From Helicobacter sp. (GTDB taxonomy: Bacteria > Campylobacterota > Campylobacteria > Campylobacterales > Helicobacteraceae): a stretch of DNA of 37,796 bases. The notes under the pieces are model-generated. The model did no database searches and had not been told where the DNA came from. It saw only the letters and a list, made by a program, of their open reading frames with translations. How positions within the stretch are numbered: position 1 is the stretch's first letter; each line of letters opens with the position of its first letter. The position numbers and the translations under genes were made by a program. Below, piece after piece: positions 1,549 to 14,412 of this stretch. The stretch spans positions 1 to 37,796 of the forward strand of contig JARHYT010000079.1 of assembly GCA_029264775.1 (NCBI GenBank), given 5' to 3'.

Positions 1549-2502
1549 TTAAAAAGTAAGCCATTTGGCAATACTTCCTGATATATCTAAACCTGTTAAA
1601 TTTTCTATCCATAGCCACTGTCCAAAGCAATTTATCTCTAAAAATATCCATTCATCTTGTGGTGTAACAATAAAATCTAATGCACCATATACTAAACCCA
1701 TTTTTTCCATTAACGCATCAACTTTTTCTACTATTTGTGTTGGTGGTGTTAAGACTAAGTGCGGAGTGTTTGCCAAATCATACCGTCGCCAATCTATATT
1801 GGCAACTTTAGAATCTTGTGAGTTTATTTGACATACGAAATGTTTGTTGCCAACTACAATCCAACGCACTTCAAATTTTTTCTTAACATATTCTTGCAAA
1901 ACTATAGGGTTTTGAGTTCCACTAAATTTATATTTTAAATCATTGATGGTAATTTTATTTGTATATACACCCTTTAATACATCATTCTCTACATAAATAT
2001 TTTGATTGTATAGTTTAAAAATTACTTCTCCTTGCTCAATAATAAAGTGTTCTAAAGCTATATAATCATTGCTTACAATGGTAGTTGGAGTATTTAAACC
2101 CACTTGTTTTGCGATTTGTGTTTGAAAAAACTTATTTTCTCCAATATAAGCATTCTTTAGTGAATTAAATGCTTTTGTTGACCTTAGACTAAACCATAAT
2201 CCATTTAAAACGGCATTAAATTCATTTTTAAAGATCTTAAAATTAATATTATGCTCTAAACTTATTTCTTCAATACTTAATTCTAAAAATGCTCGACGAA
2301 AATATATACATGAAATTTCATTGTGTCTTATGGAGTTTTTACCTACAACAATGGTCCAAATATTATTCTTAAAGCTAAGAGTTGTGTTTGAAATAGCATT
2401 CAAATCTAAATTAAGTCTAAAAGTTTTCTTTCCTGCTTCTTGAATTTTTTTTTCCACAAGATCTGCATGAGCATCAAAATGATCACTAACTATTAGTATC
2501 AT
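1549..2502 (-). CDS. MvdD-type ATP-grasp peptide maturase (graspetide ligase)
   Basis: Predicted ATP-grasp ligase that would form side-chain ester or amide cross-links in a ribosomal peptide, using ATP to activate Asp/Glu carboxyls. The protein (317 residues from ATG at 2502) shows family landmarks in order: an N-terminal segment MILIVSDHFDAHADLV, a central NPIVLQEYVKKKFEVRWIVV strand region, DWRRYDL, and near the C terminus GALDFIV...FLEINCFGQWLWIE followed by LTGLDISGSIAKWL. The EIN...GQWLWIE stretch holds the Mg/ATP-binding Glu and Asn and is characteristic of the MvdC/MvdD branch rather than RimK or Ddl. The frame could extend to a TTG at 2535, but the ATG better fits the family start; its ribosome site is weak, so coupling to the upstream peptide gene (48 nt away, same strand) is likely. 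Family assignment is strong; the chemistry performed is inferred. Confidence 0.85.
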   Translation of the reverse strand: MILIVSDHFDAHADLVEKKIQEAGKKTFRLNLDLNAISNTTLSFKNNIWTIVVGKNSIRHNEISCIYFRRAFLELSIEEISLEHNINFKIFKNEFNAVLNGLWFSLRSTKAFNSLKNAYIGENKFFQTQIAKQVGLNTPTTIVSNDYIALEHFIIEQGEVIFKLYNQNIYVENDVLKGVYTNKITINDLKYKFSGTQNPIVLQEYVKKKFEVRWIVVGNKHFVCQINSQDSKVANIDWRRYDLANTPHLVLTPPTQIVEKVDALMEKMGLVYGALDFIVTPQDEWIFLEINCFGQWLWIENLTGLDISGSIAKWLTF

Positions 2503-2550
2503 TACTAATACTCGTTTAAATCCAATAATATACAAACAATTGTTCTGTAT

Positions 2551-2766
2551 TTATGCAATTTTCATGCCCTCATTTGGTCTATCACTATCTCCTCTATTGT
2601 CGGTTTCTCCTGCATATGTGCTTTGTTGAGTGCTGGTAGGTGCACCACTAGCATAAATGTCTTTTACATCATTCGCAGGTTTCCAGATCCATTCGCCTTT
2701 TATGCTATTATCCACATGTATAGACTCTAAATAATATCCTGCAAAGATTTGATTGAAATTTTGCAT
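2551..2766 (-). CDS. Candidate graspetide precursor peptide
   Basis: A 71-residue protein immediately upstream of the ATP-grasp ligase, with a good ribosome site (AAGGAA, 7 nt before ATG) and its own TATAAT box. The N-terminal half is leader-like: IFAGYYLES at residues 7-15 resembles the FFARFL helix that MvdC/MvdD enzymes bind in microviridin leaders. The C-terminal third looks like a core: T44, S45, T46, S49, T50, Y51 followed by E54, D56, D60, D62 and E66. Hydroxyl donors thus come first and carboxylates follow, the order expected for omega-ester cross-links. The microviridin KYPSDW signature is absent, so this would be a different core type. No Cys, no export signal and no GG cleavage site are seen. 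The role is inferred from position, size and composition; the sequence was not recognised as a named family. Confidence 0.72.
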   Translation of the reverse strand: MQNFNQIFAGYYLESIHVDNSIKGEWIWKPANDVKDIYASGAPTSTQQSTYAGETDNRGDSDRPNEGMKIA

Positions 2767-2794
2767 TTATGTTCCTTTCAAATAATTTATTTTA

Positions 2795-2800
2795 ATTATA
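2795..2800 (-). promoter_or_regulatory. -10 box for the peptide/ATP-grasp pair
   Basis: On the minus strand a perfect TATAAT lies 29-34 nt upstream of the precursor start codon, which would give a leader of roughly 20 nt containing AAGGAA. No clear -35 box is seen, which is usual for Campylobacterota sigma-70 promoters. Confidence 0.5.
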
Positions 2801-2922
2801 CACTAGAATTACATAAATTATTTGAAATATAAATGATTTTTTCTAAACTAGTATTTATCTTGTTACAATAGGTAATTTATGCCCATAAGAATTACCATTA
2901 ATTTTTAGCTTGTTTTATTATT

Positions 2923-4082
2923 TTATATAATTAATTTATATAAAGATTTTTTAATTTTTGAATTTTCATAATGCACACCCAATAAATATTTAAAATACTG
3001 CAAAATTTTGGGACTTAGAATCTTAGTTTCACTTTTATTTATAAAATAAGATTCTAAAGCTTTAAATTGTTGAAAATCAGTCATAATATCATAATTTCCA
3101 AAATAAATAAGGAATATGTGGTAAAAACAATTTAAACACATCGACATAGCAATACAAACTATATTGATCATCAGGGACATAAATTGTATTTGTGTTTGCT
3201 CTATTTATAAAAGTTTTTGATCTTACAAGAGCATTGATATCGCACATTGTGTAAAACACTGCCTTGATTTGAGAATTTGTGATGCGTTTTTTTTGTTAGG
3301 ATATTTATCAATATATTTACCGACTTAATCAAAATCATTTATATAAAAAATCCTACCCTCTATTGTTGTGAAATTAAAATTACAAATATACTTATAATCC
3401 ATTCCCACATTATTTTTTTATACAAAGCAATAATCATTGGAAAATGCCCCTTAGAGTCCTTGCAAAATTCTTTTGAGCTAATGATTGTAGAATCAAAAGC
3501 CTATAATCCTTTGCAAAATTTTTTAGTGCACTAAAGTTTGTTTTTTAATCAGATATGAAAGTGGGTGTAGAACACAGATAAAATTTGCTTTTAACTTATC
3601 ATAAGAGCGTAAAACGCTTATGCCTATATATCTAGATTGCAAGGTAGAATCTATTTGCATAGATTCTTTATTTTTTAATGAGCTTTGCATGATAGAGGTT
3701 CTTTCATTGTAAGGTGGATTACCCATGATGATAAGTCTGCAAGATTCTGTAATACTAAAATTATCTCTCGTAACATTATATAGTGCATTTTTATGAAGCA
3801 GTTTTACCTTAGAATCTAGTGTGCTTTTTGCTATATGTAAGGCTGTTTTATCAATATCAACTCCTATGATTTTAGTAAAGCTATTTTATTAAATCCATTT
3901 TCAATAATCGCATTTGTGCGTAAGAAATTACCACTTCCACATGAACTATCAAACAACACATAGCCATTAGAATCTATATGTTTTTGGAGCATAGTATATA
4001 CTTCATTAACCAAAAAATCAGAAGTATAAAAACTACCAAGATTGATTTTTTCTTTTGTGTCTAAATGCGTTGATTCTATCGT
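2923..4082 (-). pseudogene. Decayed adenine-specific DNA methyltransferase (Eco57I/N6-type)
   Basis: Minus-strand fragments can be joined into one methyltransferase. From just after the purB stop it reads HLDTKEKINLGSFYTSDFL, then FDSSCGSGNF (motif I, SAM binding), after a frameshift near 3890 TKIIGVDIDKTALHIA, then LIIMGNPPYNERTS (motif IV, NPPY) at about 3720. Beyond the stop at 3523 other frames give SSKEFCKDSKGHFPMIIALY, EGRIFYIND and finally an open stretch ending at 2923 (YFGNYDIMTDFQQFKALESY). At least three frameshifts or stops break the frame, and no start codon was found after purB; the pseudogene continues in the purB frame straight past its TAA. It is clearly inactive. Confidence 0.85.
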
Positions 4083-7400: not shown

Positions 7401-8381
7401 TTAATTTGTAAGCATTGCTACAAAACCTCTATCAAAACCAGAATAATCTTGATAGAAATTAGCCTCATATCCAAATTTCATTAACACTTCATGCACACTT
7501 TCTCTTTGATCATAACCAATCTCACAGACTAGAAATTTAACCCCTCTCTCACTAGCTTGCAAAATCAATCTTTTTAATATCTCATCTCCCTTGTATCCAC
7601 CAAATAATGCTATGTGGGGTTCATGCAAAACTTCTTGATTTAATGGGTAGTTATTTGCAATATATGGCGGATTAGACAGCAACAAAGGGCATTGTTGAAG
7701 CATTAAATAAGGAGATTGTAAAAGATCAGATTCCACAAAATCACATCTATTGTCCATATCTAACCTTTGTGCGTTGTGTTTAGCTATATTTAATGCTTTC
7801 TTGCTTATATCTGTTGCAATTGCACAAGTTTTGTCTGTATTGTTTAATATCGAAAGACTAATAGCTCCACTTCCAACACCAACTTCAATAAAATTAGTAA
7901 TCCCATAGGTTTTAATAATATCTAATGCTTTTTCTACCAAAATCTCCGTTTCTGTTCTTGGTATCAACACATTTTCATCAACATAAAATTCCATATCATA
8001 AAAGTACGCACGATTTGTTAAATATTCAAGAGGCATGCCATTTTTACGCATTGCTAGAAGCTTAAAATATCTCTGTTTATCAAAGTCAGATACCTCTTTT
8101 TTTGCATTAATATGTAAATCTGTGCGATTCATATTCAATATAAAGCATAGTAGCGTCTCTGCCTCATATCTGGGACTTACGATATTAAAGCTTTGTTGAT
8201 TGTCAATTTTTGAATAGATGCCACCATATTTTGGCAAATCCTTTGGCAATTTATCTGTTTCAAAACTATTAATGTCTGTTAGTAGAAATGAGGTTTCATA
8301 CACAAGTTTTTTAAAATCATCAAGATTGACATCTTTTAAAAACGCTATTGCTATACGCAATAATAGATCAATTTCTATCAT
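7401..8381 (-). CDS. prmC: Release factor glutamine methyltransferase
   Basis: SAM-dependent methyltransferase that modifies the GGQ glutamine of peptide release factors 1 and 2. Recognised by the SAM-binding stretch FIEVGVGSGAISLSIL, the LIPRTETE segment (RPETE in most homologues) and the catalytic NPPYIA. The N-terminal domain (about 1-110) is divergent and longer than usual, including NMNRTDLH. I chose ATG at 8381 (326 residues), preceded by GGGGG, over an in-frame TTG at 8393. The start overlaps the 3' end of the M48 gene by 14 nt, so translation is probably coupled. Confidence 0.93.
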   Translation of the reverse strand: MIEIDLLLRIAIAFLKDVNLDDFKKLVYETSFLLTDINSFETDKLPKDLPKYGGIYSKIDNQQSFNIVSPRYEAETLLCFILNMNRTDLHINAKKEVSDFDKQRYFKLLAMRKNGMPLEYLTNRAYFYDMEFYVDENVLIPRTETEILVEKALDIIKTYGITNFIEVGVGSGAISLSILNNTDKTCAIATDISKKALNIAKHNAQRLDMDNRCDFVESDLLQSPYLMLQQCPLLLSNPPYIANNYPLNQEVLHEPHIALFGGYKGDEILKRLILQASERGVKFLVCEIGYDQRESVHEVLMKFGYEANFYQDYSGFDRGFVAMLTN

Positions 8382-11583: not shown

Positions 11584-14412
11584 TTATGATTTTAAAGACT
11601 TACCAACAATTTTGCTAAATTCTGGAGTTGTTTCAAACACACGGAATTGTGCTTGTTCTGATACTCCATCTTTAATGTTTCCCTTTGATTCCAATGCATC
11701 ACTTAAACCATAGTTATCTGAAATTCCAAATGATTCATAACCATCAACATCTTGAATTTGCATATCTAAATCACTGGCTAGGTTAATATCACTATTATCA
11801 TTTTGACTTGACGATTGTGCATCTATTAGATAGTCCATGTTAGAATCTTTTGATTCTATCCCTAACAAGCTATCAAACTCGCTAGTGTAATTACTGCTAT
11901 CGCTTATATCCATGCCATCTGGATAAGCCTCTTGTAACTCCAACGAATCATCTAATGTCGGCAGTAGTTTATCTGAATCTTGCATAATGTTTTCTTCATT
12001 GTTTGAATGCTCTTCTATATCTTGTTCATAGTTTGTTTGATTATCCAAAGATAAATTGTTAGTATCTTGACTTAATTTCTCATCATCTAAGGCTTCATCA
12101 AATAAAGATTCTAGTGAAAATAAATCATCATCAATAGGTTTAGGTTCTTTGCCTTCTTCATTGGCTAATTTTATTGAATCTGTAGTTTCTGTAGAATCTG
12201 CGTTATCTAGATTTTTTGAAATATCTTGTAAAAAATCTAGTGAAGTATCTTGTGTATCTTTTATTGCATGCTCTGAAGCATCTAGTTTCTTAATATCCTC
12301 TATATCGTGCAATGAATCTATATCTATATTTAATTTGTTCAATTCTGTTTGCAATTCTCCAAACAATGTTTTGCCTTTACCAATATTTGATTCTGCACTA
12401 TCTTGCATATGTTTATCACTGATACTATTATGTTTTAAATCAAGATCTATTGCTTTATTATCTTCATCATTTAAAAACTCAAGCGGAGAAAATCCTTGAT
12501 ATTCATCTCCTTTAGTTAAGTTATCTACCCCATTAGTATTTAAATCGCTAGTTTTATGCGATTCAGTAGCTTCTTGTGTATCTGCAGATTCTGTTGAATC
12601 TTGAGTGCTTTGCGTATTGTCTGTATCTGCGTATAGAAAATCTAAAATATTGTCTGTATTTTGCGTATTGTCATGATTTGAATCTGTTTCACTAGGTTGC
12701 TTATCAAGTGGCTGCGAATCTTTTGAGTTTATAGAATCTAGTGTATTTGAGAGATCCAATTCACTATCTAACTCATTATTAATCACTTCTTGTGTATCTG
12801 CAGATTCTGTTGAATCTTGAGTACTTTGCGTATTGTCTGTATCTGCGTATAGAAAATCTAAAATATTGTCTGTATTTTGCGTATTGTCATGATCTAAATC
12901 TGTTTCACTAGGTTGCTTATCAAGTGGCTGTGAATCTTTTGAGTTTATAGAATTATTACTTAATGTAGTTGAATTATTTGTTGTACCCGTGCTTATATTT
13001 GTATCACTTTGCCTAAGATCTAAAAATTCTAAATCTTTATGGCTTAAACTCTGTAAAGTTTGTTTAAGCTCTTCCATATTTTTACCTGTTTCTTCTTGTA
13101 TCACTTCTTCTTCTTGGGCAGTTTCTTGCTGTTTTAGCTGTTTTTCTGTACTCTGTAGCTCTAATGATAAAAAGTCTCTCCATTCATTAGGATTTATTTT
13201 TTTTGCAGTGATAAATATATCTTTATCTCCTCTACCACTTACATTAACAACTATAATCTTACCTCTTTGCTCCTTTGTTATCTGTATAACTCCCGCTAAA
13301 GCATGACTTGATTCTAACGATGCCAATATGCCTTCATGACGGGCAAAAAATTGCATTGCCTCTAACGCCTGATCATCACTAACCGCAAGGAATTCCGCTC
13401 TATTTATGTTAGCTAAATGTGCTAATTGTGGTCCAACTCCTGCATAATCAAGCCCAGCACCAATTGAATGCGTATTTTGTATTTGCCCATGTTGATCTTG
13501 TAGAAAATATGATTTAAAACCTTGTGCTATGCCAATTCTAGCCCCACTATTTTCACTCAAACACATTGCATTTTTATTTGGTAGAAAGTTTTCACCACCA
13601 GCTTCTATCCCCAATAGTTTGACTTCCATATTATTCAAAAAAGCACTAAATGCACCGATAGCATTACTTCCACCACCAACAGACGCTATGATATAATTTG
13701 GTAAAATAATATCCATATTTTTACTCAAAGCTTTTATTATTTGCTTTTTAATCTCATATCCAACGATAGATTGTGCTTCTCTTACTATATCAGGATATGG
13801 ATATGGTCCCACTGCTGAACCAATTACATAAAAATACTCATTAGGAGAGCTACTCCACTGCTTCAAAGCCTCATTAATTGAATCTTTTAAAACTTTGGTG
13901 CCACTTTCTACGCTAACTACTTCAGCACCAAATTGTTGCATGATAAATACATTTGGTAGATGTCTTTGCCTATCTGCCTCACCTATAAAAATAGTACATG
14001 GCATTTTTAAAAATGCACATGCACTAGCCACAGCGATGCCATGTTGCCCAGCCCCAGTCTCTGCTATAATGTGTTTTTTATTCATTTTTTTTGCTAACAA
14101 AACCTGTGCTAACGCATTATTTATTTTATGAGAACCAGTATTTGCTAAACCATCAAATTTTATATATATATCATTGCATAATATCTCAGAAGCATTTTTT
14201 GCATAAATTAATGGTGTTGGTCTGCCAGCAAATGTTTTAAATAAGCGTTTTAATTCTTTTCTAAAACTCTTTGTTTGAAAAATTTGCTTATATGCCTTCT
14301 GCAAATCATGTAATGGGGCATATAAAATTTCTGGCACAAAGCAACCACCAAAACTATTATCACCCTCTCCAAAAAATCCTTTTTCACTTTCTAAAAATAT
14401 CTTCTTTTCCAT
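11584..14412 (-). CDS. trpB: Tryptophan synthase beta chain fused to a long acidic tail
   Basis: Residues 1 to about 405 are a complete TrpB, the PLP enzyme that joins indole and serine: PTPL (66-69), the PLP lysine in TGSHK (K96), AETGAGQHG (117-125, catalytic Glu118), the phosphate loop GGGSN (246-250), GLDY (320-323) and SGRGDKD (392-398). The segment before the lysine reads KFDGLA instead of the usual KREDL. Residues about 410-942 form an extra region not found in TrpB: Asp/Glu/Ser/Gln/Asn-rich, predicted disordered, with a duplicated block (487-542 and 559-614). It ends in a more ordered-looking piece, FRVFETTPEFSKIVGKSLKS. No trpA or other trp gene is nearby. A single uninterrupted frame supports a real fusion. 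The tail function is unknown. Confidence 0.88.
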   Translation of the reverse strand: MEKKIFLESEKGFFGEGDNSFGGCFVPEILYAPLHDLQKAYKQIFQTKSFRKELKRLFKTFAGRPTPLIYAKNASEILCNDIYIKFDGLANTGSHKINNALAQVLLAKKMNKKHIIAETGAGQHGIAVASACAFLKMPCTIFIGEADRQRHLPNVFIMQQFGAEVVSVESGTKVLKDSINEALKQWSSSPNEYFYVIGSAVGPYPYPDIVREAQSIVGYEIKKQIIKALSKNMDIILPNYIIASVGGGSNAIGAFSAFLNNMEVKLLGIEAGGENFLPNKNAMCLSENSGARIGIAQGFKSYFLQDQHGQIQNTHSIGAGLDYAGVGPQLAHLANINRAEFLAVSDDQALEAMQFFARHEGILASLESSHALAGVIQITKEQRGKIIVVNVSGRGDKDIFITAKKINPNEWRDFLSLELQSTEKQLKQQETAQEEEVIQEETGKNMEELKQTLQSLSHKDLEFLDLRQSDTNISTGTTNNSTTLSNNSINSKDSQPLDKQPSETDLDHDNTQNTDNILDFLYADTDNTQSTQDSTESADTQEVINNELDSELDLSNTLDSINSKDSQPLDKQPSETDSNHDNTQNTDNILDFLYADTDNTQSTQDSTESADTQEATESHKTSDLNTNGVDNLTKGDEYQGFSPLEFLNDEDNKAIDLDLKHNSISDKHMQDSAESNIGKGKTLFGELQTELNKLNIDIDSLHDIEDIKKLDASEHAIKDTQDTSLDFLQDISKNLDNADSTETTDSIKLANEEGKEPKPIDDDLFSLESLFDEALDDEKLSQDTNNLSLDNQTNYEQDIEEHSNNEENIMQDSDKLLPTLDDSLELQEAYPDGMDISDSSNYTSEFDSLLGIESKDSNMDYLIDAQSSSQNDNSDINLASDLDMQIQDVDGYESFGISDNYGLSDALESKGNIKDGVSEQAQFRVFETTPEFSKIVGKSLKS
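12571..12953 (-). repeat. 167-bp direct duplication inside the TrpB acidic tail
   Basis: 12571-12737 and 12787-12953 are nearly identical (about four mismatches by eye), with a period of 216 nt, exactly 72 codons. Both copies encode the peptide block SKDSQPLDKQPSETD followed by NTQNTDNILDFLYADTDNTQ. The high DNA identity implies a recent in-frame tandem duplication. Confidence 0.92.

Follow-up and report, generated by a model that had tools for sequence, protein, structure and literature searches.

Within the window, the 37,796-nucleotide stretch of Helicobacter sp. DNA analysed here, a gene for a 71-residue peptide (positions 2551–2766, minus strand) is followed after 48 bases by an intact gene for a 317-residue ATP-grasp ligase (1549–2502, minus strand; ATG at 2502, stop at 1549), which NCBIfam and Pfam matches, together with sequence and fold matches in the PDB, identify as a graspetide synthetase. 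Both open reading frames (ORFs) are intact and lie where an earlier annotation made from the letters alone, here the sequence-only reading, had placed them. The peptide divides into a leader of about residues 1–41 and a core of about residues 42–71. Just 5′ of its gene (2767–2805, minus strand) are a ribosome site, AAAGGAA, and a TATAAT element some 33 bases from the ATG. Both had been read as signals of the gene's own expression. The ribosome site stands, a GGA-type site preceding the precursor gene in 6/6 Campylobacterales genomes compared; the TATAAT is weak evidence for a promoter, because sigma-70-like sites are no commoner in the stretch than in its shuffles (14 found, 14.5 expected). 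Neither a second ligase nor an obvious RiPP partner appears in the window's ORF list, as expected of a stand-alone pair, and the genome search with the ligase as query gave a single match across the entire assembly, which comprises 100 contigs and is 87% complete. The genus grouping of the genome search places this genome with H. didelphidarum, in agreement with its earlier description as Helicobacter-like.

The ligase falls in the graspetide synthetase branch of the ATP-grasp enzymes. Three NCBIfam maturase models match it, TIGR04185 (E 2.9e-53), TIGR04187 (E 1.7e-52) and TIGR04184 (E 4.7e-50), with 170–181 bits, all far short of the curated cut-offs of 350–475 bits. The best, TIGR04185, reaches 181 of 425 bits and TIGR04184 reaches 171 of 475 bits, so that the MvdC/MvdD equivalog cut-off is not attained, and the second-best, TIGR04187 (TgmB type), scores half of its cut-off. 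The PF21068 MvdD pre-ATP-grasp domain is recognized above the Pfam cut-off. The suggestion that 1549–2502 would match ATP-grasp maturase models was therefore right as to the family, with no model above its curated threshold, and the label ‘MvdD-type’ attached to the enzyme proves too narrow; because its scores lie so far under the cut-offs, its sequence places it on a separate branch among graspetide maturases. Its only PDB sequence relatives at E ≤ 0.01 are 5ig8 (MdnB), 5ig9 (MdnC), 7m4s (AMdnB), 7mgv (CdnC) and 9bou, the last named PruB by the fold search. That search, run with a model of moderate confidence (pLDDT 72), ranked AMdnB, MdnC, CdnC, MdnB, PruB and PsnB at the top, with RimK and ArgX below them. 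The EINCFGQWLWIE signature that had first singled out the enzyme is indeed kept near-identical across its homologues, and K163, R213, D276, E289 and N291 are invariant in the ligase alignment.

The enzyme might instead be RimK-like, adding amino acids to a host protein or otherwise modifying it, with the small gene an unrelated or regulatory neighbour. It does match TIGR00768 (41 bits) and PF08443, RimK structures are present lower in the fold search, and a homologous ligase on a viral contig (L020, described below) matches phrog_2599, a family whose annotation is ribosomal protein S6 modification. However, the scores of the graspetide maturase models are four times as high, every fold match above RimK and ArgX is a graspetide macrocyclase, and ligase and small gene are inherited together as a strict pair, all of which makes a RimK-like function very improbable.

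The peptide has six homologues, 44–59% identical to it, each encoded beside a homologous ligase or its remains, and on these grounds its sequence identifies the gene as more than a chance ORF. Changes in the core codons are concentrated at third positions; the precursor is therefore under protein-level selection. An alignment of the seven precursors delineates a putative leader recognition motif at residues 7–15 (I-F-A-G-Y-Y-L-E-S in the window; 2722–2748, minus strand), with the family form V-F-A-x-[RKS]-F-L-E, or I/V-F-A/S/G-x-x-F/Y-L-E across all seven, in which F8, L13 and E14 are invariant (7/7). Aligned without gaps, this segment resembles PFFARFL, the microviridin leader motif, which has a role in that leader (PMC8939145), and the window family does without the proline that is common in graspetide leaders (PMC8939145). 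Between the leader motif and the core lies a W26-x-W28-x-P30 segment (2677–2691, minus strand), invariant in 7/7 precursors.

The core block itself, residues 39–67 (ASGAPTSTQQSTYAGETDNRGDSDRPNEG; 2566–2652, minus strand), spans 29 residues without insertion or deletion in 7/7 precursors and has the consensus ASGxxTxT..STY....DN..D.DRPNEG. T44, T50, Y51, D56, D62 and R63–G67 are invariant, T46 and D60 are each kept in 6/7, and S/T49 and E66 are likewise conserved. The block, which would carry the cross-links, thus has the order of a graspetide core, Thr/Ser/Lys donors (here T44, T46, S/T49 and T50) and then Asp/Glu acceptors (D56, D60, D62 and E66). A search for membership of a known precursor family came back empty: Pfam and NCBIfam precursor models give no credible match for any of the seven members, the one stray Pfam match, in a single member, being to a fimbrial domain (E 0.03), and no PDB chain matches the precursor. 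Neither is the microviridin core motif present in the seven aligned cores, nor does any curated microviridin precursor model match. Disorder is expected of a RiPP precursor, and the model of the window peptide appears disordered apart from a weak, low-confidence leader helix at residues 5–15. With a pLDDT of 47, very low confidence, this model is too uncertain to count as evidence of a hairpin.

Searches with the ligase and the peptide covered the order Campylobacterales, the window's family, a Campylobacter-like genus and its family, the class and the phylum; ‘Campylobacter-like’, applied to genomes G254, G424 and G409, reflects their gene content and separate family. Besides the window, five Campylobacterales genomes proved to have the pair: H. 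didelphidarum (L007/L015, G449), two other Helicobacteraceae genera (G460 and G487) and two Campylobacter-like genomes (G424 and G254). In all Campylobacterales copies the precursor gene lies 5′ of the ligase gene, side by side with it. A profile scan of viral contigs added IMG/VR 3300021398_000104 (L020/L042), in which the order is reversed, with the precursor 3′ of the ligase. Intact ligase homologues are 45–55% identical to the window ligase, and every intact or near-intact ligase of at least 45% identity has a homologous precursor beside it. In a tree, the seven precursor-bearing ligases form one clade (support 100/99). At about 30% identity, on Herpetosiphon, Pedobacter, Sinorhizobium and Legionella plasmids and at L021–L023, no similar precursor was found among the ligases inspected, and plasmid and viral ligases at this level have other small genes beside them or none.

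The precursor is thus adjacent to the ligase and co-inherited with it. A conserved small gene beside ligase homologues, predicted by the sequence-only reading, occurs at six other loci, and the contrary outcome that it had named in advance, homologues lacking any such gene, was not seen at this level of relationship. The related idea, that the pairing in a Campylobacterota host might be new, needs revision: the pair does occur in several Campylobacterales, but as a scattered cassette that is not peculiar to the window's host. We conclude that the two genes very probably constitute a minimal graspetide cassette, in which a single precursor is paired with a single ATP-grasp graspetide synthetase; the graspetide reaction itself we infer from the family.

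Several features make this cassette, of two genes only, look like a mobile, dispensable trait. First, its flanks are unrelated in each of the six genomes compared. No conserved neighbourhood with a protease or transporter was found around it; the flanks differ from genome to genome, with one site shared by G254 and G409. Second, its distribution is sporadic, the precursor being present in 4/121 genomes of the window's family and in 2/49 genomes of the Campylobacter-like genus. Third, the tree points to transfer: the ligase of G460, a member of the Helicobacteraceae, is closest to that of the Campylobacter-like G254 (67% identity over a fragment; support 96/91), and this grouping across families suggests that the cassette has moved between them. 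Fourth, it decays repeatedly. The ligase gene is broken in G254 (L008), with the precursor intact, and in G409 (L031), where it shares most of the G254 lesions and the precursor is mostly deleted; in G460 (L016), the ligase gene loses its frame by one base within a run of T at about codon 5 (near 8200), a lesion that is either real or an assembly error. These lesions argue that the trait can be dispensed with. G254 and G409 are close Campylobacter-like genomes with one common site, and in G254 the precursor has outlasted its ligase.

Restriction-modification or abortive-infection genes lie beside the cassette in 3/7 loci. The window pair is flanked by decayed DNA methyltransferase remnants (257–588 and 2923–4082, minus strand) with the motifs SPPYNIGIN and NPPYNERTS, one piece matching the Eco57I family (E 4e-5), and from its sequence the site reads as a worn-out restriction-modification spot. 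In G424 (L018, 8858–10824), an HTH regulator, a transposase remnant and a split cytosine methyltransferase lie just 5′ of the pair. The L020 contig encodes a serine recombinase, a VapE/BT4734-type primase, a putative AbiC protein and a type I specificity subunit (HsdS), a gene set that marks it as probably a Bacteroidota mobile element. The precursor had no match in plasmid and phage collections, and models of known defence systems gave none either. Given such surroundings, the window pair could be a decaying relic, intact yet no longer expressed or functional. The methyltransferase remnants on its flanks, the breakage of the same pair in G254 and G409, and an assembly of 100 contigs at 87% completeness would accord with this; however, both window genes are full-length and keep their conserved residues, and change in the core is biased to third positions, so we regard a relic as unlikely.

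For a functional cassette, the following sequence of events can be proposed. In the 71-residue precursor, the synthetase would bind the helical segment of the leader, VFAxRFLE in its family form; with ATP it would phosphorylate Asp side chains in the C-terminal half, and Thr side chains would then attack the activated Asp residues to form omega-ester cross-links, with 18 Da lost per link. Three nested links, T50–D56, T46–D60 and T44–D62, would be formed along the same face of a hairpin, and S/T49 and E66 may be additional partners. The window precursor with Met1 has a calculated monoisotopic mass of 7938.72 Da, which three links would lower by 54.03 to 7884.69 Da. A protease encoded outside the cassette would then cut off the leader, perhaps close to the conserved ASG, a position that we infer from the sequence pattern only. 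The cassette as a whole would travel between genomes as a unit and often be lost.

The nested topology is a tentative assignment, to which we give slightly less than an even chance. It is suggested by the position sums of T44/D62, T46/D60 and T50/D56, all of which equal 106, a constancy that corresponds to cross-strand geometry. T46 and D60 are further indicated as partners by the G487 precursor, which has lost both (T46 to A, D60 to S), a covariation resting on one sequence; under the nested model, this precursor would lose 36 rather than 54 Da. We rejected the equal-sum pattern as proof of the rings, since it arises by chance with a probability of 0.04 for a three-by-three choice of residues and of 0.50 when the choice is widened to four donors and four acceptors. 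The product has about an even chance of being a graspetide with another ring pattern, with overlapping links, links through S49 or E66, or two or four rings. S/T49 and E66 are conserved too, and the links of microviridin are staggered and overlapping (PMC12291112), but nesting is favoured, weakly in both cases, by the joint loss of T46 and D60 in G487 and by the constancy of the sum at 106.

Set against known systems, the locus resembles microviridin (MdnA with MdnB/MdnC) in the fold and active site of the ligase, which is about 25–27% identical to MdnB and MdnC in structural alignments, in its short leader-plus-core precursor and in the helical leader motif, PFFARFL in the one and VFAxRFLE in the other. 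Unlike microviridin, it has one ligase rather than two and neither acetyltransferase nor transporter, and its core has no microviridin motif and no Lys donor between T44 and E66. The proposed rings come closest to those of the stem-loop graspetides, fuscimiditide/graspimiditide (ThfA–ThfB, group 13) and OEP6-1, in which Thr–Asp links are likewise nested with a constant sum. Nested links number three in OEP6-1 and four in amycolimiditide, and fuscimiditide has the nested esters Thr3–Asp22 and Thr7–Asp18, with a sum of 25 (PMC12291112). The four-residue spacing of T46/T50 and D56/D60 in the window equals that of Thr3/Thr7 and Asp18/Asp22 in fuscimiditide (PMC12291112), whereas the window loop would be 5 residues long rather than the 10–12 of fuscimiditide and OEP6-1, and the third, outer pair would lie only two residues away. 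The fuscimiditide system also includes a methyltransferase, ThfM, for which the window locus has no counterpart; an aspartimide is therefore not predicted. With about 30% identity, TgmB/GRASP_SAV_5884-type ligases of Streptomyces (TIGR04187) rank with the best relatives found on plasmids, but the window precursor matches none of the Pfam/NCBIfam precursor models. Groups 27, 28 and 35 of an updated survey are similar in that they are described as consisting of a synthetase and a precursor only (PMC13097080).

The same survey reports 21,584 predicted graspetides, with some groups of two genes only (PMC13097080). The window family may already sit in a published graspetide network, its comparison with groups 25–43 (PMC13097080) having been by description only. 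A literature search that paired graspetides or ATP-grasp RiPPs with Helicobacter or Campylobacter, and that did not reach the two main earlier surveys, returned no such locus. The chemistry is thus of a known kind, and in the literature searched we did not find the precursor family or its occurrence in Campylobacterales described.

For the graspetide class, the role usually assumed is that of an exported inhibitor or antagonistic peptide. A bolder reading, which we think unlikely in its entirety, is that the cassette represents an undescribed graspetide family: a tricyclic, nested Thr–Asp hairpin with a 5-residue loop, made by a bare two-gene mobile cassette that has spread through host-associated Campylobacterales and into one or more further phyla. 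Its peptide might then serve in competition or phage defence and not as a classical secreted inhibitor. That role is raised by the restriction-modification or abortive-infection genes adjoining the cassette. The family offers a clean system for studying how a single ligase makes nested rings: it has two genes, its core is free of indels, and one natural variant lacks a proposed ring. It could also yield a small cross-linked peptide that host-associated bacteria make and that plays a part in their interactions with host or microbes.

Elsewhere in the window (11584–14412, minus strand), a TrpB-like tryptophan synthase beta chain continues into a long acidic, repeat-bearing region, an odd fusion of 942 residues in one frame.
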